Shown: one piece after another, positions 156 to 12,044 of the stretch
How the letters are laid out: each line of letters starts with the position of its first letter
Numbering within the stretch: position 1 is the first letter of the stretch
Assembly: GCA_015057375.1 (NCBI GenBank)
Contig: SVEM01000006.1
Location: forward strand, 1-64,000
Direction of reading: 5' to 3'
From: Lachnospiraceae bacterium
GTDB lineage: Bacteria > Bacillota > Clostridia > Lachnospirales > Lachnospiraceae
DNA length: 64,000 nt
The notes under the pieces: model-generated
The model's input: the letters and a program-made list of their open reading frames with translations, nothing else
The model's database searches: none
What the model was told of the DNA's origin: nothing
Made by a program: the position numbers and the translations under genes

Positions 156-3100
156 CTAATTATTAGCTGCATATGCTTCCTCTGTTGTCCACATATGAAT
201 GTTAAGTTTTTCACCCCAGCTTACAGTTCCGTGAAGCGGTGCTGTTTCAATCCATGCATAATCCGGACAATCTGTGATAATAATCGGCTCTGTTACCATT
301 CCGTTATCATCAATACCATTGTTTTCCACATATACTTTACATGGTTTTCCGTTTTTATCAGTTCCCTGAAGTATGTATCTTGCAGAAAGCGTCTGCACCT
401 GTCCGTCAAACTGCTTTCTTGTGTCGACAAATCTGTAATCTACAACACCTGATCCCTTAAACATATTTGTATTTGAAGAACAGGAGAAATAAATCATTGA
501 TCCGGAACCAACATTACCATCTACACCTACACTGCCGCCTATACCAATATTAAATACAAACAATTCCTTATTATAATTCTTTGTTGTATCCGGTCTTACA
601 ACAGGCGGTGGTGTTACAGTTGCATTAGGATTTCTCATAATATCAATAGTCATTCCATTGCTTGTCTCTGTAACAACCCCTTTAAGGTCTGCTGTCTCAA
701 GAAACTGTAAAGCTGAACTGTTAGTATAGATAATAGGTTTAGTTGTTATTGTTCCATCTGCATTTCTTGTTCCATTGTCCTCAATGAATATCTTGCAGTC
801 ATTACCATTCTTATCTTTTCCGGCAACTATATATCTGTTACAGTATTCTTCACTGCCATTTTTATATTTCTTACATACAACAGATGAAGCGTTATCACTT
901 CCGCCGTAGTTAGAATCCTTTCCGGTAAAATAACTTCCGCTAACTTCAACATCAACAAATGTCATTGTTACATCACATGTTGCGCCGTTAACCGTATAAG
1001 TTCCTCCGGTTTCATTTGTAAGCTGTACTGACATTACCTTTTCTGTATACGGGTCAGAACTCTTAAATGCATTTCTAAGGAAATTATACAATCCAGGTCC
1101 CCATGCATTCTCGTCATGACCGGCACCTGCAACTTCAAAATAAGTATGAGGCACACCATTATTTGTAAGTGCAGTATGGAATACGTACGGCTGTTCATGA
1201 ACTGTTGTATCTTTCTCGCCTTTTACTATCATTACCTTTGTATTATTCATATACTGTGAAGGCAATGTAAATGCTGCTTCTGAAGCAAATAATCCGTCTT
1301 CTCCAACTCCTGTCCAGTTAGGAGGATAAGCAAATATTCCATATGTCGGACAGAATGCTCCAACATATCCGAAGTATTCTGATTTAGTGAATCCTATATA
1401 AAGCGATTCACGTCCACCCATTGAGAAGCCTGCTACTGCTGTATTTTCTCTGCCTGTAGCAACATTATAATGACTTTCAATATATGGCATCAAATTGTCA
1501 ATAAGGTCTTCACGGAATGCATCATAGCATTTGTAGTTAGCTGCACTAAATTCATCTTTTATAGAAGAATCAGCACATACTCTTATGTTTGGTATTACAA
1601 TAATAGCTTCTGTTGCTTCGCCTGTTGCAAACAGGTTACCTGCTATTCTTACAATATTACAACTTTCTGCACTTGAACCAAATGAATCTTCACTACAGAA
1701 AATTCCATGAAGCATATATACTACAGGATATTTCTTATTTGAAGATGCATCATATCCCGGTGGGAGTATGATATTAAATGGTCTGTTCGAATTAGTATAG
1801 TTTGAATAATACTCTCCGCTTTCAAATCTTCCGTAACTGTTTCCTGCAATATTTTTATTATAGTTTGCAGCTACAGGATTAATTATATCATCCTTTACAG
1901 TGTTATCTACTTGAGGAGTATCCTTGCTAAATACTATTGATTTGACTGTCATCTTCTTCATGTCGCCGGTACCAAACAAGTCAATAATTGTAAACTTATT
2001 TACCGGATATGTGCCGGCATCAAACTCAATTGTCTTAGAAGTCTCATTAGCATTTATATACCACTTATTATCATTGCTGAAATTCCACCATTTCTCGTCA
2101 CCTGTTCCCTGGTATTTATAGGAGAAATTTCCGCTTGGTATTGATACATCAGCATAATTTATAGTAACTTTCTTGTACTCATTTGCTGCTATTTCATCAG
2201 GAAGAGTAACTGTAATATAATCTTTATTTATACCTGTTGAAGAAATGCTTACGCTTCCGTCTGAATTTAAATATGCACCATTTTCTAATGTCACATAATC
2301 TGCACTTAAATCTACCGCAAAGTCGCAACTCAAATCCGGTGTCGGTGCAGTAGCCGCTGAATTTTCTGTGCTGATATGAAGATTGTCCAAATAAAAATCT
2401 CCATTTCTGTCAGCATTATATCCAGGACCTTCTCCTATGTATATAGTAAGTTTTTCTGTGTTTGCAGGCACAGTGTAGCTTCCCTGAACTCGTGTCCAGG
2501 TTTCCGCTTTACCATATACTATATTATTATTTGAATCATAACAACGATATTTATCACCTTCTGTTCCGGCTGCATCTGCAAACCAGTATATGAATGAAAT
2601 ATCTCCGTTTGATGCATAATTTTTTGCAAGCTTTACATCAAATGCAAAATTCACAACTTCTCCTGCCGCAAAGCTTCTGTTAATCGTATATGCTGCAGCA
2701 GAATAATTATTCCAACGTCCACTGTACACACCATATCCGTCTCTAACACTTGGTGTGTATCCGCCATAATTACTGCTCCATCCGGTATTGCCATTAGAGA
2801 AGTCACCGTTTGCTATAATGTTGGTTGCAGGATTCTCTGTTGGTTCGGCTGTAGGCACCGGTGTCGCCGGCACTGCTGTAGGTCTTACATATGTACCATC
2901 AAACATTGTAAGATCGATTGCATTTGCCATAACATCATAGCCTTCATATGGATGAAGTCCGTCACCTAAAGTATATTCATATTTAATATTCTTTGGATTT
3001 GCAGGGTCTGCAAGCGCACTCTCAAAGTCTATTATTCCGTCAAATCCTGATTCTTCTGAACGCATCCAGTTGTTAAGCATGGTTCTTACCTGCTCGGAAG

Positions 3101-6100
3101 CGTCGCTGTAATAGTCACTTGTTCCGAACGGAAGGATTGGTGCTGCATATATCTTAATTCCATTCGCATGGGCGAGTGCTACCATCTTCTCATATTCAGG
3201 CTTAAGCTGATTATATTTAGAGGTATCACTTAACTTATTAAGATCATTTACACCAAAAAGTACTATACAATAACCCACATTATCATGCTGAAGCAAATCT
3301 CTTGCAAATCTGTCTTTTCCGGCATCTGTAGGATATGAACCCATCATTGAGTTTGCTCCGATACCTTCATTGATTACAGATATGTTCTTAGTTGATGCAT
3401 TTGCTTGAAGTCTCTTTGCAAAATAATCTCCCCATCTTGTATAACTGTCAGGTTTCTTTCCAAGATATCCGGCATCTGTTCCGTAACCATCTGTGATAGA
3501 ATCACCAAAACATACAACCGCCTTAGCATTCTCAGGCTGCATAAGCGAAACATCTGCAAGGAAGAACCAGCTTGTAGTTGTTTTGTAATTACTGAATGTT
3601 CTTGCAGAAACATTGTTTCCGGACATCTGGTATGTAGTTGCTCTTGCTCCTCTGTGTCCTGTTATGTTATTTGTAGGAGTGCTTCCGAAATACATGGATA
3701 TCGCAACATTTTCAAGTGCATTTACAGGGAAATACACCGGATCTGTCACAATAGTCTGTCCCGCAGGGATTGAGAAGGACTCACTTCCATTTACTTTTAC
3801 TACTGTATCTGTTGATGTATCTATAGTGGATTCATCAGCCTTTACCTGCTTTGCGATATGGAGTGACCTTACTGTTACCGCACTTCTTCCGTACTGGTTA
3901 GACAATTTAAGCTTCATCTTATTACCGGATGTTGTAACCTTAATAATCTGTCTTACAGTAGATCCTTCAAGTGCCATCTGAGGCATAGCAGTATCTGTAG
4001 TATCACATTTTTCCTCTGCTGTTCCCCATGTAGCCACCCAAATATCATTATTAGGGTCTTCTGTCGGTGCAACTGTTGCTACCGGAGGTTCTGCATTTTT
4101 GTTACCTATATAGAGATTATCCAGATAGAAGTCGCCTTTTCTGTCACCATTATATCCGGGACCTTCTCCAATATATATAGTAAGTTTTTCGGTATATGCA
4201 GGTACTGTATAGCTTCCCTGAACCCTGGTCCATGATCCTGCATTACCATATACAATATTACTGTTTGAGTCATAACAACGATATTTGTCGCTCTCTGTGC
4301 CGGCTGCATCAGCAAACCAGCATACAAATGAAATGTCTCCGTTTGATGAATAATTTTCTGCAAGCCTTAAATCAAATGCATAGTTTATAACTTCGCCTGC
4401 CGCAAAGCTTCTGTTAATTGTATATGTTGCTGCAGAATAGTTATTCCAACGTCCGCTGTACACTCCGTATCCATTTGTAACCGCAGGTCTAAATCCACCG
4501 TAGTTGCTGCCCCACCCGGTGTTGCCGTTGGAAAAATCACCATTTGTTACAAAGTTGATGGTTGGCACTACAGTTGGTTTTGCTGTTGGCGCCTGTGTTG
4601 GTGCTACTGTTGGCGCCTGTGTTGGTTTCGCCGTTGGGGCTACCATAGGTTCTGCTGTCGGTGCCTCTGTCGGCTCTACAGATGGCAAGCCTTTAAGCGT
4701 AATGGATTCAATAGTTACTTTTCCTCCCTCAACACCACCAAAGAATCTTGAGTTAGCATAACCACTTCCATCTTCATTATTATAGTTAGGAACAAGTGAT
4801 AACTCTCCACTTCCTGTAAAGTTTGCACCACCCCAGTGCGCTTCTTCACCCGGCATCCATCCAATGTTATCAGTTCCGTAGTGTACTGTATATCCTACTG
4901 TTCCCAGATTAGCATCACGATACTTTACAACAACGTCTGTAAAGTTGTAATTATTGTATATCGATGCCGGCACACTAAAACCAAATTCTCCATTTGCTCC
5001 TCTGGTATATGTGTATGAACCATCTCCGTTCTTTGTCTTTGTAATGGTTCCGCTTTCAAACTTAAAGCAGTCATCAAGATTAAGTGTATACTCTGTACGA
5101 GATTCATTCCATCCCCAAGCAGGAACCGGTGCCTGTGTTGGTTCTGCTGTCGGTGCTACCGTAGGTTTTGCTGTCGGTGCCGCTGTCGGCTCCACAGATG
5201 GCAAACCTTTAAGAGTAATAGATTCAATAGTTATTTTTCCTCCCTCTACACCACCAAAGAATCTTGAGTTAGAATAACCATTTCCATCTTCATTATTATA
5301 ATTAGGAACAAGTGATAACTCTCCACTTCCCGTAAAGTTCGCACCACCCCAGTGCGCTTCTTCACCCGGCATCCATCCAATGTTATCAGTTCCGTAATGT
5401 ACTGTATATCCTACTGTTCCCAGATTAGCATCACGATATTTTACAACAACATCTGTAAAGTTGTAGTCATTGTATATCGATGCCGGAACACTAAAACCAA
5501 ATTCTCCATTTGCTCCTCTTGTGTATGTATATGAACCGTCTGCGTTCTTTGTCTTTGTAATAGTTCCGCTTTCAAAAATGAAGCAGTCATCAAGATTAAG
5601 TGTATACTCTGTATGAGACTCGTTCCATCCCCAAGCAAGAGTTGGAGCATTTGTCGGTATAACTGCTGATTCATCATCACTTAAAATAATAGAATTAATC
5701 TTAAGGGATGTAAAAGATGCATCATAAGTAGCAGCTTTCACAAATATGTAATTAGCATTATCATCTGTTGCTGTTAACATACCCTTTATTGGCGATGAAC
5801 TTGTAGGAATAATATTAGTTACTGCAGTATCAACAGCATCCTTTACAAGATATAATCTTGGTGTGCTTCCCGCCGCAGTATAATCCATAGTAATATAGGC
5901 CGACTGAGCATTGTCTAAAACATATTCTTCAGGAACAGGAATCATTAAACCTGAGAATCCTTCTGCCCTTTCAAATGATATACTTCCATCCGAATTAACA
6001 GTTGCTCTCGCACCATCTCCTCCATTAACAACTACAACTTCATTTGCATCGAATGTTAATGAAATCGGAGTTCTTGATGATGTGGATGCAGATGCCGCAT

Positions 6101-6185
6101 TAACCACTCTCGAAAGTGGAGCATCTGAGATAACCATCGCTACGACAAGTAATAATACCACTAATTTTTTCATCATTTTTTTCAC
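156..6185 (-). CDS. Giant modular secreted esterase: N-terminal module, two WGWN modules, CenC/CBM4_9-like module, SGNH/GDSL hydrolase, second CenC-like module, CE1-type (feruloyl/acetylxylan) esterase, two C-terminal DUF3237-like repeats
   Basis: ORF open to 6236, but GTG at 6185 preceded by GGAGG is the likelier start (VKKMMKKLVVLLLVVAMV signal peptide). SGNH blocks GDSITDG, GxND (GVNDLNK), DGLHP; CE1 nucleophile GFSMGGRES and GAGHDENAW; PT-rich linkers. Confidence 0.85.
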   Translation of the reverse strand: MKKMMKKLVVLLLVVAMVISDAPLSRVVNAASASTSSRTPISLTFDANEVVVVNGGDGARATVNSDGSISFERAEGFSGLMIPVPEEYVLDNAQSAYITMDYTAAGSTPRLYLVKDAVDTAVTNIIPTSSSPIKGMLTATDDNANYIFVKAATYDASFTSLKINSIILSDDESAVIPTNAPTLAWGWNESHTEYTLNLDDCFIFESGTITKTKNADGSYTYTRGANGEFGFSVPASIYNDYNFTDVVVKYRDANLGTVGYTVHYGTDNIGWMPGEEAHWGGANFTGSGELSLVPNYNNEDGNGYSNSRFFGGVEGGKITIESITLKGLPSVEPTAAPTAKPTVAPTAEPTQAPVPAWGWNESRTEYTLNLDDCFKFESGTITKTKNGDGSYTYTRGANGEFGFSVPASIYNNYNFTDVVVKYRDANLGTVGYTVHYGTDNIGWMPGEEAHWGGANFTGSGELSLVPNYNNEDGSGYANSRFFGGVEGGKVTIESITLKGLPSVEPTEAPTAEPMVAPTAKPTQAPTVAPTQAPTAKPTVVPTINFVTNGDFSNGNTGWGSNYGGFRPAVTNGYGVYSGRWNNYSAATYTINRSFAAGEVINYAFDLRLAENYSSNGDISFVCWFADAAGTESDKYRCYDSNSNIVYGNAGSWTRVQGSYTVPAYTEKLTIYIGEGPGYNGDRKGDFYLDNLYIGNKNAEPPVATVAPTEDPNNDIWVATWGTAEEKCDTTDTAMPQMALEGSTVRQIIKVTTSGNKMKLKLSNQYGRSAVTVRSLHIAKQVKADESTIDTSTDTVVKVNGSESFSIPAGQTIVTDPVYFPVNALENVAISMYFGSTPTNNITGHRGARATTYQMSGNNVSARTFSNYKTTTSWFFLADVSLMQPENAKAVVCFGDSITDGYGTDAGYLGKKPDSYTRWGDYFAKRLQANASTKNISVINEGIGANSMMGSYPTDAGKDRFARDLLQHDNVGYCIVLFGVNDLNKLSDTSKYNQLKPEYEKMVALAHANGIKIYAAPILPFGTSDYYSDASEQVRTMLNNWMRSEESGFDGIIDFESALADPANPKNIKYEYTLGDGLHPYEGYDVMANAIDLTMFDGTYVRPTAVPATPVPTAEPTENPATNIIANGDFSNGNTGWSSNYGGYTPSVRDGYGVYSGRWNNYSAAAYTINRSFAAGEVVNFAFDVKLAKNYASNGDISFIYWFADAAGTEGDKYRCYDSNNNIVYGKAETWTRVQGSYTVPANTEKLTIYIGEGPGYNADRNGDFYLDNLHISTENSAATAPTPDLSCDFAVDLSADYVTLENGAYLNSDGSVSISSTGINKDYITVTLPDEIAANEYKKVTINYADVSIPSGNFSYKYQGTGDEKWWNFSNDNKWYINANETSKTIEFDAGTYPVNKFTIIDLFGTGDMKKMTVKSIVFSKDTPQVDNTVKDDIINPVAANYNKNIAGNSYGRFESGEYYSNYTNSNRPFNIILPPGYDASSNKKYPVVYMLHGIFCSEDSFGSSAESCNIVRIAGNLFATGEATEAIIVIPNIRVCADSSIKDEFSAANYKCYDAFREDLIDNLMPYIESHYNVATGRENTAVAGFSMGGRESLYIGFTKSEYFGYVGAFCPTYGIFAYPPNWTGVGEDGLFASEAAFTLPSQYMNNTKVMIVKGEKDTTVHEQPYVFHTALTNNGVPHTYFEVAGAGHDENAWGPGLYNFLRNAFKSSDPYTEKVMSVQLTNETGGTYTVNGATCDVTMTFVDVEVSGSYFTGKDSNYGGSDNASSVVCKKYKNGSEEYCNRYIVAGKDKNGNDCKIFIEDNGTRNADGTITTKPIIYTNSSALQFLETADLKGVVTETSNGMTIDIMRNPNATVTPPPVVRPDTTKNYNKELFVFNIGIGGSVGVDGNVGSGSMIYFSCSSNTNMFKGSGVVDYRFVDTRKQFDGQVQTLSARYILQGTDKNGKPCKVYVENNGIDDNGMVTEPIIITDCPDYAWIETAPLHGTVSWGEKLNIHMWTTEEAYAANN
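4680..5650 (-). repeat. Tandem near-identical duplication of an approx. 455-bp module inside the giant esterase (copies approx. 4680-5135 and 5198-5650, 516-bp offset)
   Basis: Both copies encode WGWNES(R/H)TEYTLNLDDCF...GFSVPASIYN(N/D)YNFTDVVVKYRDANLGTVGYTVHYGTDNIGWMPGEEAHWGGANFTGSGELSLVPNYNNEDG...RFFGGVEGGK(V/I)TIESITLKGLPSVEPT with very few DNA differences. Confidence 0.9.
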
Positions 6186-6361
6186 TTGAACGACCTCCAT
6201 TACTGAAAATAGCTTTAGTTTGTATGCAAGATACATAAAATTATACTAACATATAAAAAATAATCATTCAATAAACATATATTTTTTATTAACAAAATAT
6301 ATGTTTTATGTCACAAAAGATAGCAGGGAATTAGCTGCTGCATTTACTTTGTACATAAAAA

Positions 6362-6390
6362 CCAGTTGCGACATTATTTATCGCAACTGG
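6362..6390 (-). terminator. Rho-independent terminator downstream of the start-less CE1 ORF
   Basis: CCAGTTGCGA (6362-6371), loop CATTATTTA, TCGCAACTGG (6381-6390); T-run on the minus strand (GGTTTTTATG). Confidence 0.85.
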
Positions 6391-6417: not shown

Positions 6418-7332
6418 TTACTGTACCTTGAATATTCTGGACACGAAGTTGTAGAATCCAAACTTAAATACATCATCTCCATGATCTCCGTTTCCAGTCT
6501 CGTTATATCCTCCCATAGTTTCATAATACATATGAGGAACACCATTATCAGTAAGTGCATCATGATAATCTTTAGGGAACTTATGAACCATTCCATCATT
6601 TATTCCTTTAATGATCATTACAAAAGTATCGTCCATATATTTATCCTTAAGAGTAAAACTTTCTTTTGTAAATAATCCAACATCTGTAACTCCCTGATCA
6701 GTATAATCAAATATTCCCGGTGCCGGACAAAAAGCACCAACATATCTAAATGTATCCTGAAGTGTAAATCCAAGGTGAAGTGATACACGTCCTCCCATTG
6801 AAAATCCACATATTGCTGTGTTGGCACGGTCTGTGAGAGTTGAATAGTGTTCATCTATATACGGCTTAAGACACTGTTCGAAATCATTAAGGAAGTTATT
6901 ATATGCCTTATAATGTTCAGTATTAAAACCAAGCCCGTTATCTTTTCCCGATTCATTGGCACAGCCGTTAGGAAATACAAGAATCATCTCTTCTGCATCT
7001 CCGTTTGCAATAGCATTCCAAAGAACATTCTGAACATGACATCCATACATAGTTGTTTCATTTCCAAATATACCATGGTTCATGTATACCACAGGATATT
7101 TCTTGCTTTCATCATATCCCTTAGGAAGAATAACATATGCTTTTCTGTAAATGGTGCGACCTTCAACAATAGCTGTTGAAGGATATGTGATATGTTCAAC
7201 AGTTCCTTCAACGCTACTGTTAATTGTCTCAAAATTCTGTGGTACTGAGTAATTAGTATTCTTCAGTATCTCACTTATAGGTACGTAAGCAGTATCATTA
7301 TTTAGTTTTTTTTTCCGTAGAAGATTACGGAT
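6418..7332 (-). pseudogene. CE1-type esterase ORF with no canonical start; continues the 1580-aa upstream ORF in the -1 frame
   Basis: Frame is open from 7332 to the stop at 6418; the first ATG/GTG/TTG I find is the GTG at 7092, inside the conserved KKYPVVYMNHG strand. Translation across the join: KKKLNNDTAYVPISEILKNTNYSVPQNFETINSSVEGTVEHITYPSTAIVEGRTIYRKAYVILPKGYDESKKYPVVYMNHGIFGNE...CGFSMGGRVS. See finding at 7302. Confidence 0.75.
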
Positions 7333-10300
7333 TTAATATTGCCTGTTGATACATTATTAAAAGCTCTTATTATCTTTACAGCCTTAATTGAATCTACTTC
7401 ATTACTAAATAATGCATATGGAGTATAGCCTAAAATCTTGTTCTCACTTTCTGACTTAGATTCAGTTGGAAGTTTATCAGATAACCCTGGGGCACCATTT
7501 CCAATATTAGCTCCATTAAATTCTTCTCCAAAAAGATAGAAATGAAGATTTCTATTGTTTTCAAGAACAACATCTACCTGTGTATATGTCACACCGTTAT
7601 TAGGTGCCAAAATTGCTATACTCTGTCCATTATTTGCTCCAAAGTTTAACACTCCATTGTTATAGTTTGCTGCTGTTTCGAGGTTATCTGTTATGTAGTT
7701 TGACGGATTAGACAAATCTACTTTGTGGTAATCAAGAGCTTCTACAAGTTTAAGGTCACATGCATAGACATCACCAAGACCATAATAACTAGGTCTACTT
7801 GTTACACTACTGTAGTATATCTCATAATTTCTAGTAATAGAGTCACTATCATTTACCATCATATCAAATGCCATTGTCTTATTCAAGCGACCGCCATTAT
7901 TAAATGGAATTTTGTACTCTATCATGTATCCTTTTCCATCGCTATCAATAGAATATCTTGCACAGTCACTAGTGATATTGTTTGCAAGACTTCCCGGACC
8001 ACCAACACCTATTTGAAAACCATTATTGTCAGCTTCAAGATTAGACTGTCCTAACAATCCTCCGTCAAGTCCTGAAATACGATACTGGAAAGCATCTGTA
8101 TTATTGTCATATCCCGTTTCTCTGCTAGCATTTTCATCAAGGAAAAACTCGATACCATCTTGAAGATGTGCAGCAGTATTTGCTTTAGATATCTCAGCAT
8201 CCTTTACATGAACAAGACAATATAAGTTATTCTCATCCCATGCAATTTTTGTGTTTGCAATTGTAGTGCTTGAATTAGATCCTTCCCCTGTTGCCAATTT
8301 AGTATCCATCGGAGTCCAAGGAATTGATTCCCATATTTCATCTGCAACACCGTCGATATTAATAGGTGTAGTTACCCGATATGCATACTTAGTTTCGTAT
8401 GGGGAAGGCGTCGCTGTTGGTACAGGTGTAGCCACATTCTCATAGGATAAAAACTTCACCGACTTGAAATTAATGTCTGTTGAACCATCCATTGTTACAA
8501 ACTTAATAGCTCTTATAACATCTTCCGGATCAGTCCAAATCTGAGTTGTCTCTCCGTTCGTAGCTGTTATCTTTTGATTAGCTAATCTATCACTCTGACC
8601 TGGAGAACCATTCGTTATTTGGCCATTAAATGCACTACCAAACACGAACGGATTAAGATTATAACTACTTGTGTATGTCACTTCAACCGCAGTAAAATCA
8701 TAGCCAGTCGGAGCTATAAACGCCACACCTTGATAGTTAGCAAAACTCGCTTCCAGCAACCCTGTTTCTGAATTATAAGCCACTGTACCACCATCTGCGT
8801 CCCAGGTGTCTTCATCGGAAAGATCAATTTCGTACACATATGTTGGTGTTGGCACTGATGCACCACCTTCAACAAGCTGAATTGTTCCCATAAGACCTGG
8901 GTTGTTGTAAAGATTACCATTGGAAAGAAGATAAATCTCATTTCTTCTTTCGTTTGCAATACAATCCATTACATATATTTCAAATCCCATTCCTACTCCA
9001 GGCTGAACAGTTAAAGGATTAACAAATGGAATATATGCCTCTACTATATATCCACCAGTAACCATTGTATGCGCTGTTTCAATACCAGCGTATAATGTGC
9101 TAGCATCATTTCCTTGCGAAGCTACACCATTAGTAATTACACCATCTTCAGAAAGCTGAGTATAACGATACTGGAATGCATCCGCATTGCTAGCATATGA
9201 AGTTTCTTTCGAAAGATCTTCATCCAAGTAGAACTCAATACCATCATTCTCCCATGCGTTACCATTACTAGCAATAACCGTATCGTCTTCAACATTTACA
9301 AGCAAGTAAATTCCTAAATCATCCCAAAGAACCTTTGCAGTAGCAGTTGTATTTGTCGATGTACCACTACTATATGTTTCAAGTTTGAGAGTCTCTGCAT
9401 CAGCCCATGCTGCATCATCAGCACTACCATCTACTTCAATGTCTTTATCTGTCTTATATACCTGAAGATCCGCTTGATCAGCATTAATTATCGGACGGAA
9501 TGTAGGTATAGGTGTTGGTGGAGCTGTTGGTGGAGCTGTTGGCGCAGCCACTATACCTGAAAGTGTAATAGATTCAATTGTAACAGAGCCTCCAACTGTT
9601 CCATCAAAGATTCTAGAGTTGGAATAGTTAGCATCATAACAGTATACATTTCCTCCGTCTGCTTCCGCATATTTATAATAGTAATCCGGATTAATTACCC
9701 ACTCATCATCTCCAGCCAATTCATAAACATTCCATATACCATTGTCAGGATTGACATGAGTAACCGTGTTAGTTCCATAATGAGCAGTGTGACCTACCCT
9801 ACCATAATTTGCATCACGGTAATCTATAACCACCTTAGTAAATCTATTATTTTTATATTCTTTTTCAGGTATCTGGAAACCAAACTCTCCTCCATCTCCT
9901 CTTGTAAAGGTATATGTACCATCCTCATTCTTAACTTTAGTTTCATTATCATTATTCCAAAGGCAATCATCAAGATTAAGAGTATATTCCGAATGATCCT
10001 CATTCCAGCCCCAGAAAGGTGTTGGCACAGGCGGTTCTTCGTTCTCAGTACTAATGTGGAGATTGTCTACATAGAAAGTATTCGTCCTGCTTGAAGTATA
10101 ATTAGGTCCCTCTCCAATATATATCGTAAGACTTTCTGTATATTCTGGTACTGTGAATGTTCCCTCAACTCTCGTCCATGATTCTGCATTACCATATACT
10201 CTGTTGCCTTCCGAATCATAACAAATATATTTACCTTGATAATCACCACCAGAAGTATATTCACCTGAATCAGATGCAAACCAACAAGCAAACGAGTAAT

Positions 10301-12044
10301 TAGTATCGTTATAATTCTCTTCAAGTTTAACATCAAATGCATACTTTACGACATCCCCTGCAGCAAATCTTCTGTTAATTTTATACCATGCTGGAGAATA
10401 GCAGTTTACGCGGTCGTCAATAACACCATATCCATTTGTAACACTAATACCTGACCAACCATCCCATCCAATAGTTCCTTCAGAGAAGTCACCATTTGTT
10501 ATAATGTTAGTTGCAGGATCCTTTGTTGGTATCGGCTTAGCATCTAATTCGAATACTACAGACTTAATCTTGATGTGGAAAGATTCATTTCCACTGTATA
10601 TCTTATAGTATTCAAGTTGGCGATATGCATCAAATGTTTCGTCTTTAGTACCTGAACCGGCAGATTCATTAATACTTCCTGTTTCACTTCCACCAACATA
10701 ACGATAATTTCTTGTAAAACCATCATTTGCATCCTCATATGTGATACGAATGCCTGTTATAGCATAGTTGTTATCATATATTTCTGGAGGTGCAAAGAAT
10801 GATATTCCTGCAAAACCTTGTCCTGCATCAAATATACACTCATTATTATAATTAAATGTAAATGTACCTTTTTTATAGGCGCCTGTTGTTTCATCGAAAT
10901 CTATTTTAACGGTGTCTGCATTCAAATCTAACACATACTCTGATTTATCAGCATTAAATCCTGTCTCAGGAGGAGCTCCAAGTGTAGAAGGATATTTTAC
11001 GGTAATACTTGAAATTACCCATCCCTCTATCTTATTACCTTCATTATAATGATCTGGTTTAAATGTTAAGAAACTACATTCTTCTGTAATATCTTCTTTA
11101 ACTTTTATTGTGACTTTTCCTTCATATGAGTTGTCTTCACTTATATCCACATTTAAATACGAACTAGAAGCATTCTCTGTATATTTACTACCATTATTTA
11201 TATCCGAAGAACCGACAGCCCATACTCTAATACCTTTTCCAGGCCAATTCTTACCTGATACGGTTACTTCAATCTCCTGTCCCGGTTTAACTGAAGGGTT
11301 CAAAGGAAAATGCAACTCTGTCGTATTAGTATCTTCTCTAACATCATTAATTATTAAATTGTTATTCTCATCAAAAGTAGCAATATCTGGATTGTTTAAT
11401 TCTTCTAATTCTTTCAAGTCAATAACCACAGTATTCTCAAAATCTTCAAGATTCTCCTGTGTAAGCAATTTATTTCCAATATATAAGTTGCCGTCTTCCT
11501 TAAGGTTCAACCCCTGATAATCAGCTTCCATAGCTTCCACTAATCCTGCAACAGTTCTGGTTTCTGTGTTTGAAGACGGATTAATAATATTATCAGATTC
11601 GCCTTCAGCAACTTCAGCTTTATACTGAACATGACCTTTTATTGTTATTTCTGTATCCTTATTAGCATAAGGAATTCCACTAAGAACAACAGCATATATT
11701 ACGGAATCATTTGCAACATTCTTAGAATACACCTTGTTATGTATCTGTTCACTATTATTACCTTCAAATGATGAAGTACGGACAAAAACAGACCTTCCTT
11801 CAACGGTAATCTCTATAGCACAACCGTTAGCCGCACTTGCATTATTAATCTGTATTGCCATTCTCATAGACTGTCTTCCGTTAGTTTCACCCAATTTAAG
11901 TGTAGCACCGAGCACTTCAGCTGTCGGCACTTTTGAAGGATCAGCAGCTTTAGCTGCCTTAGGTGAATAAACCAGTCCTGACAATACAATGGCTACTGCC
12001 ATAATAAATGCCAGTAATTTCATTCCTCTTGTTGACATTGTCAT
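7302..12044 (-). CDS. Modular secreted protein (N-terminal shared domain, CenC-like module, WGWN module, two CBM9-like modules, other beta modules); no catalytic domain in this frame
   Basis: Signal peptide MKLLAFIMAVAIVLSGLVYSPKAAKA; GGAGG 5' of ATG; CBM9-like KDIEVDGSADDAAW...NDGIEFYLDE and PINIDGVADEIW...DGIEFFLDE; ends FYGKKN at TAA 7302-7304. Confidence 0.85.
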   Translation of the reverse strand: MTMSTRGMKLLAFIMAVAIVLSGLVYSPKAAKAADPSKVPTAEVLGATLKLGETNGRQSMRMAIQINNASAANGCAIEITVEGRSVFVRTSSFEGNNSEQIHNKVYSKNVANDSVIYAVVLSGIPYANKDTEITIKGHVQYKAEVAEGESDNIINPSSNTETRTVAGLVEAMEADYQGLNLKEDGNLYIGNKLLTQENLEDFENTVVIDLKELEELNNPDIATFDENNNLIINDVREDTNTTELHFPLNPSVKPGQEIEVTVSGKNWPGKGIRVWAVGSSDINNGSKYTENASSSYLNVDISEDNSYEGKVTIKVKEDITEECSFLTFKPDHYNEGNKIEGWVISSITVKYPSTLGAPPETGFNADKSEYVLDLNADTVKIDFDETTGAYKKGTFTFNYNNECIFDAGQGFAGISFFAPPEIYDNNYAITGIRITYEDANDGFTRNYRYVGGSETGSINESAGSGTKDETFDAYRQLEYYKIYSGNESFHIKIKSVVFELDAKPIPTKDPATNIITNGDFSEGTIGWDGWSGISVTNGYGVIDDRVNCYSPAWYKINRRFAAGDVVKYAFDVKLEENYNDTNYSFACWFASDSGEYTSGGDYQGKYICYDSEGNRVYGNAESWTRVEGTFTVPEYTESLTIYIGEGPNYTSSRTNTFYVDNLHISTENEEPPVPTPFWGWNEDHSEYTLNLDDCLWNNDNETKVKNEDGTYTFTRGDGGEFGFQIPEKEYKNNRFTKVVIDYRDANYGRVGHTAHYGTNTVTHVNPDNGIWNVYELAGDDEWVINPDYYYKYAEADGGNVYCYDANYSNSRIFDGTVGGSVTIESITLSGIVAAPTAPPTAPPTPIPTFRPIINADQADLQVYKTDKDIEVDGSADDAAWADAETLKLETYSSGTSTNTTATAKVLWDDLGIYLLVNVEDDTVIASNGNAWENDGIEFYLDEDLSKETSYASNADAFQYRYTQLSEDGVITNGVASQGNDASTLYAGIETAHTMVTGGYIVEAYIPFVNPLTVQPGVGMGFEIYVMDCIANERRNEIYLLSNGNLYNNPGLMGTIQLVEGGASVPTPTYVYEIDLSDEDTWDADGGTVAYNSETGLLEASFANYQGVAFIAPTGYDFTAVEVTYTSSYNLNPFVFGSAFNGQITNGSPGQSDRLANQKITATNGETTQIWTDPEDVIRAIKFVTMDGSTDINFKSVKFLSYENVATPVPTATPSPYETKYAYRVTTPINIDGVADEIWESIPWTPMDTKLATGEGSNSSTTIANTKIAWDENNLYCLVHVKDAEISKANTAAHLQDGIEFFLDENASRETGYDNNTDAFQYRISGLDGGLLGQSNLEADNNGFQIGVGGPGSLANNITSDCARYSIDSDGKGYMIEYKIPFNNGGRLNKTMAFDMMVNDSDSITRNYEIYYSSVTSRPSYYGLGDVYACDLKLVEALDYHKVDLSNPSNYITDNLETAANYNNGVLNFGANNGQSIAILAPNNGVTYTQVDVVLENNRNLHFYLFGEEFNGANIGNGAPGLSDKLPTESKSESENKILGYTPYALFSNEVDSIKAVKIIRAFNNVSTGNIKSVIFYGKKN
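7305..7314 (-). other. A9 homopolymer / A_AAA_AAC slippery heptamer immediately 5' of the stop codon
   Basis: Coding strand reads TAC GGA AAA AAA AAC TAA; T9 on the + strand at 7306-7314. Confidence 0.9.

Follow-up and report, generated by a model that had tools for sequence, protein, structure and literature searches.

How could an intact esterase be made from a reading frame that has no start codon of its own and lies behind the stop codon of a different protein? This question is raised by a locus on the minus strand of a 64-kb stretch of Lachnospiraceae DNA (the whole stretch analyzed, hereafter the window; GC 38%), where the gene of a secreted binding protein ends at a run of nine adenines and a CE1 esterase follows in another frame.

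The binder and the start-less esterase

The upstream gene (ORF1, 7302–12044, minus strand), characterized by Pfam and by a search of the genus, encodes a secreted, multimodular binding-type protein of 1580 aa, with a signal peptide, an N-terminal module common to the genus (17 places in seven of the 10 genus genomes) and two CBM9_1 modules (Pfam E 4e-63). Pfam gave these two CBM9_1 matches and nothing else, in agreement with a preliminary description of this DNA in which only binding-type modules had been recognized in this part. Direct reading of the 3′ end of ORF1 gives TAC GGA AAA AAA AAC TAA, as that description had it: the A9 run (7306–7314, minus strand; T9 on the plus strand) is the site of the frame transition and holds the in-frame heptamer A AAA AAC, which lies directly before the TAA stop (7302–7304, minus strand). 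A repeat scan and folding added a feature absent from that description: a perfect 6-bp inverted repeat, TCCGTA-atcttc-TACGGA (7314–7331, minus strand), which adjoins the run on its 5′ side and whose last A is the first A of the A9 run.

Behind this stop, an intact 296-codon CE1 esterase continues in the -1 frame relative to ORF1. The whole frame (ORF2, 6418–7332, minus strand; ORF reading, Pfam and structure match) is open from 7332 to 6421, a total of 304 codons, with its stop at 6420–6418, and its translation reads KKKLNNDTAYVPISEILK...GFSMGGR. Its domain belongs to PF00756 (E 6e-20, comparable values for the three sister copies described below being 9e-22, 6e-19 and 1e-21), with a GxSxG nucleophile and a full-length match to the alpha/beta-hydrolase fold, which bears out the earlier claim of some 295 codons of CE1 esterase with GFSMGGR in this frame. 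Among solved structures, the closest are the ferulic acid esterase AmCE1/Fae1A (PDB 5cxu; E 2e-54, aligned residues 21–293) and XynZ of C. thermocellum (PDB 1jjf; E 1e-27), to both of which the whole CE1 domain aligns; these are ordinary expressed CE1 domains, whereas those of the window and of its sister species lie behind a shift site or a stop. The nearest named relative of the window CE1 is from a Lachnospiraceae MAG (48% identity).

The CE1 fold begins at about 7250, and a scan of the first 72 codons of ORF2 found no ATG, GTG or TTG; the first start-like codon in frame is a GTG at 7090–7092 (minus strand), which the alignment to 5cxu places inside the fold, just as had been claimed. Likewise, the single terminator noted earlier behind both parts is present as a terminator-like inverted repeat with a T tail (ccagttgcga-taaataatg-tcgcaactgg-ttttt, 6357–6390, minus strand), seen by direct reading and passed over by our pattern scan on account of its 9-nt loop, and a scan of the region found no terminator between ORF1 and ORF2 on the minus strand. 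Downstream, the next gene (156–6236, minus strand) specifies a protein of 2026 aa in which GDSL and CE1 esterase domains, a CBM_4_9-like module and repeated modules that resemble tandem duplicates are fused in frame.

Possible slippage or frameshifting at the A9 run

A frame change would have to fall within an overlap of about 30 nt, from the stop in the -1 frame to the stop of ORF1, and the A9 run lies within it; a gain of one A or a loss of two puts CE1 in frame with ORF1. No other A/T run of at least nine occurs in the window, CE1 alone among the window's long start-less ORFs carries a conserved domain, and the whole 1.97-Mb assembly gives 21 overlapping matches to such runs, or about 18 runs (our genome-wide statements come from searches and from sampled stretches of the genome). 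We rejected the A9 run by itself as decisive proof of any one cause, since mutation, sequencing error, phase variation and slippage all favor homopolymers and its location alone therefore does not decide among them.

The inverted repeat is predicted to form a stem-loop in the nascent RNA (7314–7331; -7.0 kcal/mol, z -3.9 to -4.3, no shuffle equally good), and this is the strongest upstream fold among all A runs of at least nine in the genome. About 1% of ORF1 positions fold as strongly, and by this modeling the stem-loop beside A9 would be about a 1-in-100 chance match. Two features of transcriptional slippage sites are thus found here, an A/T run of at least nine inside a two-frame overlap and, as a prediction, the 5′-adjacent stem-loop that is present in some known cases; conservation of the site, a third, is absent, with no A9 homologue in relatives and with sister loci that carry UGA or are fused.

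The closest precedent is the IS1447 transposase gene of C. thermocellum (IS3 family), in which an A9 run follows directly 3′ of an mRNA stem-loop that takes two of its A's, the first of the run as in the window; about 16% of the transcripts gain one A and about 16% lose one A (PMC6211511). Both hosts belong to the class Clostridia, and the fused IS1447 product requires transcriptional slippage. IS1447 differs in being a mobile-element gene with two overlapping ORFs, whereas the window holds a chromosomal gene for a secreted carbohydrate-active protein, for which slippage is predicted. The classic cellular A9 slippage case, dnaX of T. thermophilus (PMC1088944), likewise gives products with and without a C-terminal part, but there the unslipped mRNA specifies the long product and in the window it would specify the short one (PMC1088944, PMC5009743). 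An IS630 element of Roseiflexus, in which slippage is stem-loop-mediated, also has an inverted repeat adjoining the 5′ side of its slippage run, which is a T5C5 motif that undergoes deletion only, unlike the A9 of the window (PMC5009743).

The preliminary description had put forward a -1 ribosomal shift at A_AAA_AAC. The heptamer is indeed there, of the form X XXY YYZ, in frame and directly before the TAA, and in one IS family for which a stimulator is not established, shifting at this motif has been proven (PMC4066793). The proposed mechanism has become weaker: no stimulator was predicted at the usual 5–9 nt downstream, the nearest helices lying about 15 and 36 nt after the AAC, no element resembling a Shine-Dalgarno sequence could be read 10–14 nt upstream of the heptamer, and the sole strong structure nearby is 5′ of the A run. 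We therefore regard ribosomal frameshifting, as opposed to polymerase slippage, as a rather unlikely source of the fusion; the stem-loop directly 5′ of A9 and the lack of a downstream stimulator lead us to prefer slippage. The anatomy of the window fits stem-loop-assisted transcriptional slippage rather than a stimulated -1 frameshift.

Sister species carry an in-frame UGA at the corresponding joint

When CE1 and ORF1 were used to search 10 genomes of the genus, the same order, binder then CE1, emerged in two sister genomes (G003 and G004); in both, the binder ORF terminates just ahead of CE1. Here, by reading of the sequence, the joints contain no frameshift and a single in-frame TGA: GCT TGA ACT in L105 (G004:C11), and ATA TGA ACT in both L106 (G004:C86) and L107 (G003:C15). 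A further genome, G007, carries the same architecture fused in frame (contig C5). Among the genes that combine the N-terminal module with CE1, the joint is interrupted in four of five, compared with one of 55 other CE1 places in the genus, the one being a decayed fragment (Fisher 5e-5, but with only two origins; the UGA loci represent two independent genomes and probably one UGA origin). In that fragment (L125, 1540–2058, G009:C1), a truncated CE1 is joined to unrelated sequence past a TGA; it resembles a genuine remnant and illustrates the appearance of decay in this genus. At all four interrupted loci, CE1 is open from end to end, with its catalytic motifs intact. The anatomy and its recurrence at this joint are well supported.

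A candidate in G004:C15 was rejected as a second UGA interruption, its TGA being an ordinary terminal one, and CE1 frames of about 290 codons in other genera (G148, G225) were rejected as start-less cases on account of their normal starts. A scan of viral contigs found no relatives of the UGA-type CE1.

Sequence features expected of stop readthrough are present at the sister loci: a single in-frame stop, a conserved and start-less coding sequence behind it, and a leaky stop context, UGA followed by A in all three. No ATG, GTG or TTG occurs in the first 54 codons after the UGA in L106 or in the first 71 in L105; L107 has an ATG 22 codons after the UGA, a chance start that its orthologue lacks. 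Between the UGA copies, CE1 is under strong constraint (dN/dS 0.13–0.145, p 3e-11 to 1e-22), stronger than that on the binder before the UGA (0.37–0.51). Constraint extends to the first 60 codons after the UGA (0.15–0.19, p 0.016 to 4e-4), which precede any start in L105 and, in all but the last few codons, in L106. The relaxed selection and lesions of a pseudogene were not found, with dN/dS at 0.13–0.17 and no lesions; the decaying esterase frame in relatives, which the preliminary description had named as evidence against recoding, did not materialize, the sister CE1 frames being intact with dN/dS of 0.13–0.15. In the tree, the UGA copies of CE1 form one clade (83/79), and dS between L105 and the other two is 1.4–1.7, so that the UGA has long been kept if, as the tree suggests, it is ancestral. 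The window CE1 groups with the intact copy in G000:C40 (100/100), its closest intact paralogue, with dN/dS of 0.16–0.17 between them and protein end branches of 0.059 for the window and 0.16 for G000:C40. As the window's frameshift may be of any age, the window's own dN/dS does not prove present translation of its CE1.

A tRNA-Leu(caa) gene precedes each of L106 and L107, which look orthologous. Their binders share only about 42% identity past the signal peptide, and from about the UGA on their DNA is 93% identical and in frame; different binding modules have thus been joined in frame to the same unit of UGA and CE1. If CE1 were never translated together with the binder, it would be difficult to account for the in-frame retention of this unit despite replacement of the binder.

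Other meanings of the UGA were considered. Selenocysteine was rejected, as no SelB above the curated cut-off occurs in any of the 10 genus genomes; reassignment of UGA to tryptophan was rejected, as UGA ends about one quarter to one third of the long ORFs in sampled stretches of G003 and G004; and a suppressor tRNA-Trp was rejected, as the tRNA-Trp genes found in eight of the 10 genomes all have the anticodon CCA and none UCA. The UGA loci are accounted for neither by pseudogenes nor by homopolymer errors. Folding of the RNA behind the UGA gave no conserved stimulator, the folds there being no stronger than those of shuffles (z about -1). In E. coli, tRNA-Trp reportedly tends to misread a UGA that is followed by A (PMC5289835), and the sister loci share with that case both the UGA-A and an intact in-frame coding sequence behind it; they differ in encoding a cellular modular enzyme, for which readthrough is inferred. 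A broken top pair of the tRNA-Trp anticodon stem has also been linked to UGA readthrough (2026, PMC13092985). The tRNA-Trp genes of G003, G004 and G001 (L214, L215, L216) have G27-U43 as this top pair, the other genus members found having A27-U43, and both UGA-carrying species are among these three; since G-U is still a pair, its relevance to readthrough is only a lead.

We found no other start-less ORF preceded by a long ORF in the same frame in 400 kb of two sister genomes, and no stops inside the listed GH43 or GDSL domain hits of the genus. In G007:C16 (L133, 3674–4573), an SGNH/DHHW-like protein has a TGA at an expected Gly codon, beside a broken MBOAT gene, and is probably a pseudogene; in G007:C46 (17838–18655), a GH43 is split over two frames within its catalytic domain, unlike the interruptions located at joints.

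Two proposed products from one gene, and the alternatives

We consider it probable, though well short of certain, that the interruption is a selectively maintained form of recoding, which would provide a free binder alongside one armed with the esterase, through slippage in the window and through UGA readthrough in the sister species. The host would be a plant-fiber-degrading bacterium in which standard decoding stops at the TAA and yields the secreted 1580-aa binder. RNA polymerase would slip on the A9 run, aided by the nascent-RNA stem-loop directly upstream as in IS1447, leaving a minority of transcripts with one A too many or two too few; on these, ribosomes would continue into CE1 and produce a secreted fusion of about 1875 aa. 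In the sister species, the UGA-A at the homologous joint would be read through, most likely by near-cognate tRNA-Trp, with the same outcome, and selection would keep the mixture of bare and esterase-armed binder. We infer in this way the synthesis of the fusion, its mechanisms (slippage and readthrough), the ratio of the products and their benefit. The binder alone is also a plausible product, since binder-only paralogues end at the same module boundary. The original suggestion of two products from one gene remains the best reading and is strengthened by the sister UGA joints, which the preliminary description did not include, even as the -1 shift that was to produce them has become the weaker part of it.

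The alternatives differ in how much of this pattern they reach. Assembly error and phase variation are possible for the window alone. The true window sequence could be A10, and thus a plain fusion misread in a homopolymer, the usual site of such errors; only one assembly shows the A9 form, and the fused relative in G007:C5 shows that such genes exist. We think this unlikely: four other mid-gene A9/A10 runs in the assembly keep their gene frames intact, which disfavors a systematic homopolymer error, the UGA loci are interrupted at the same joint with no homopolymer, and a genuine A10, itself prone to slippage, would yield two products all the same. Replication slippage could instead toggle the tract within the population between A9 (binder only) and A10 (fusion), and poly-A/T phase variation is on record for genes of secreted proteins, the class to which this A9-bearing gene belongs (PMC3711429); the UGA at the homologous sister joint cannot switch in this manner, and we judge phase variation somewhat less likely again than an error.

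Ordinary decay would make CE1 a dead leftover past the point where the binder naturally ends; it would agree with the boundary at which the binder-only paralogues terminate and has a true example in the decayed fragment of G009. The four fully open CE1 frames with intact catalytic motifs and dN/dS well below 1, together with retention of the UGA and in-frame CE1 through replacement of the upstream module, make it quite improbable. Least probable of all, in our estimation, is independent translation of CE1, beginning at an internal or non-canonical codon. Other genera do have free CE1 genes whose starts are ordinary, and L107 has its ATG shortly past the UGA, but starts are lacking over the initial codons of L105, L106 and the window, and codons ahead of any start are constrained as well. 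Such a product would also have no signal peptide, whereas the intact paralogue that we inspected, G000:C40, opens with a signal-like leader.

Recoding by slippage and recoding by readthrough are each known. To our knowledge, selectively maintained stop readthrough in cellular bacterial genes, beyond selenocysteine and pyrrolysine, has rarely been documented, and searches of the literature that joined carbohydrate-active enzymes with recoding or frameshifting gave us no description of recoding in modular enzymes of this type. The new element is the apparent use of two unlike forms, slippage and readthrough, at one and the same domain joint in secreted carbohydrate-active proteins, where the enzyme behind the stop is under purifying selection. 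With two unlike interruptions at one joint and an intact, selected enzyme behind each, the question is directly testable with a dual reporter. Annotation pipelines may miss such esterases or label them pseudogenes.

A broader proposal, to which we give slightly less than even weight, is that this lineage of fiber-degrading Clostridia uses recoding generally to set the ratio of bare to enzyme-armed binders: CE1 would travel as a cassette with its own leading UGA, so that any binder placed in front of it becomes a two-product gene, and a sister would reach the same end through A9 slippage. If true, this would be selectively maintained UGA readthrough, independent of selenocysteine, in bacterial chromosomes.

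Two tandem genes in G004:C11 (L105, 774–2816 and 4203–5717) have a near-identical signal peptide and N-terminal module and then diverge, pointing to module shuffling by recombination.
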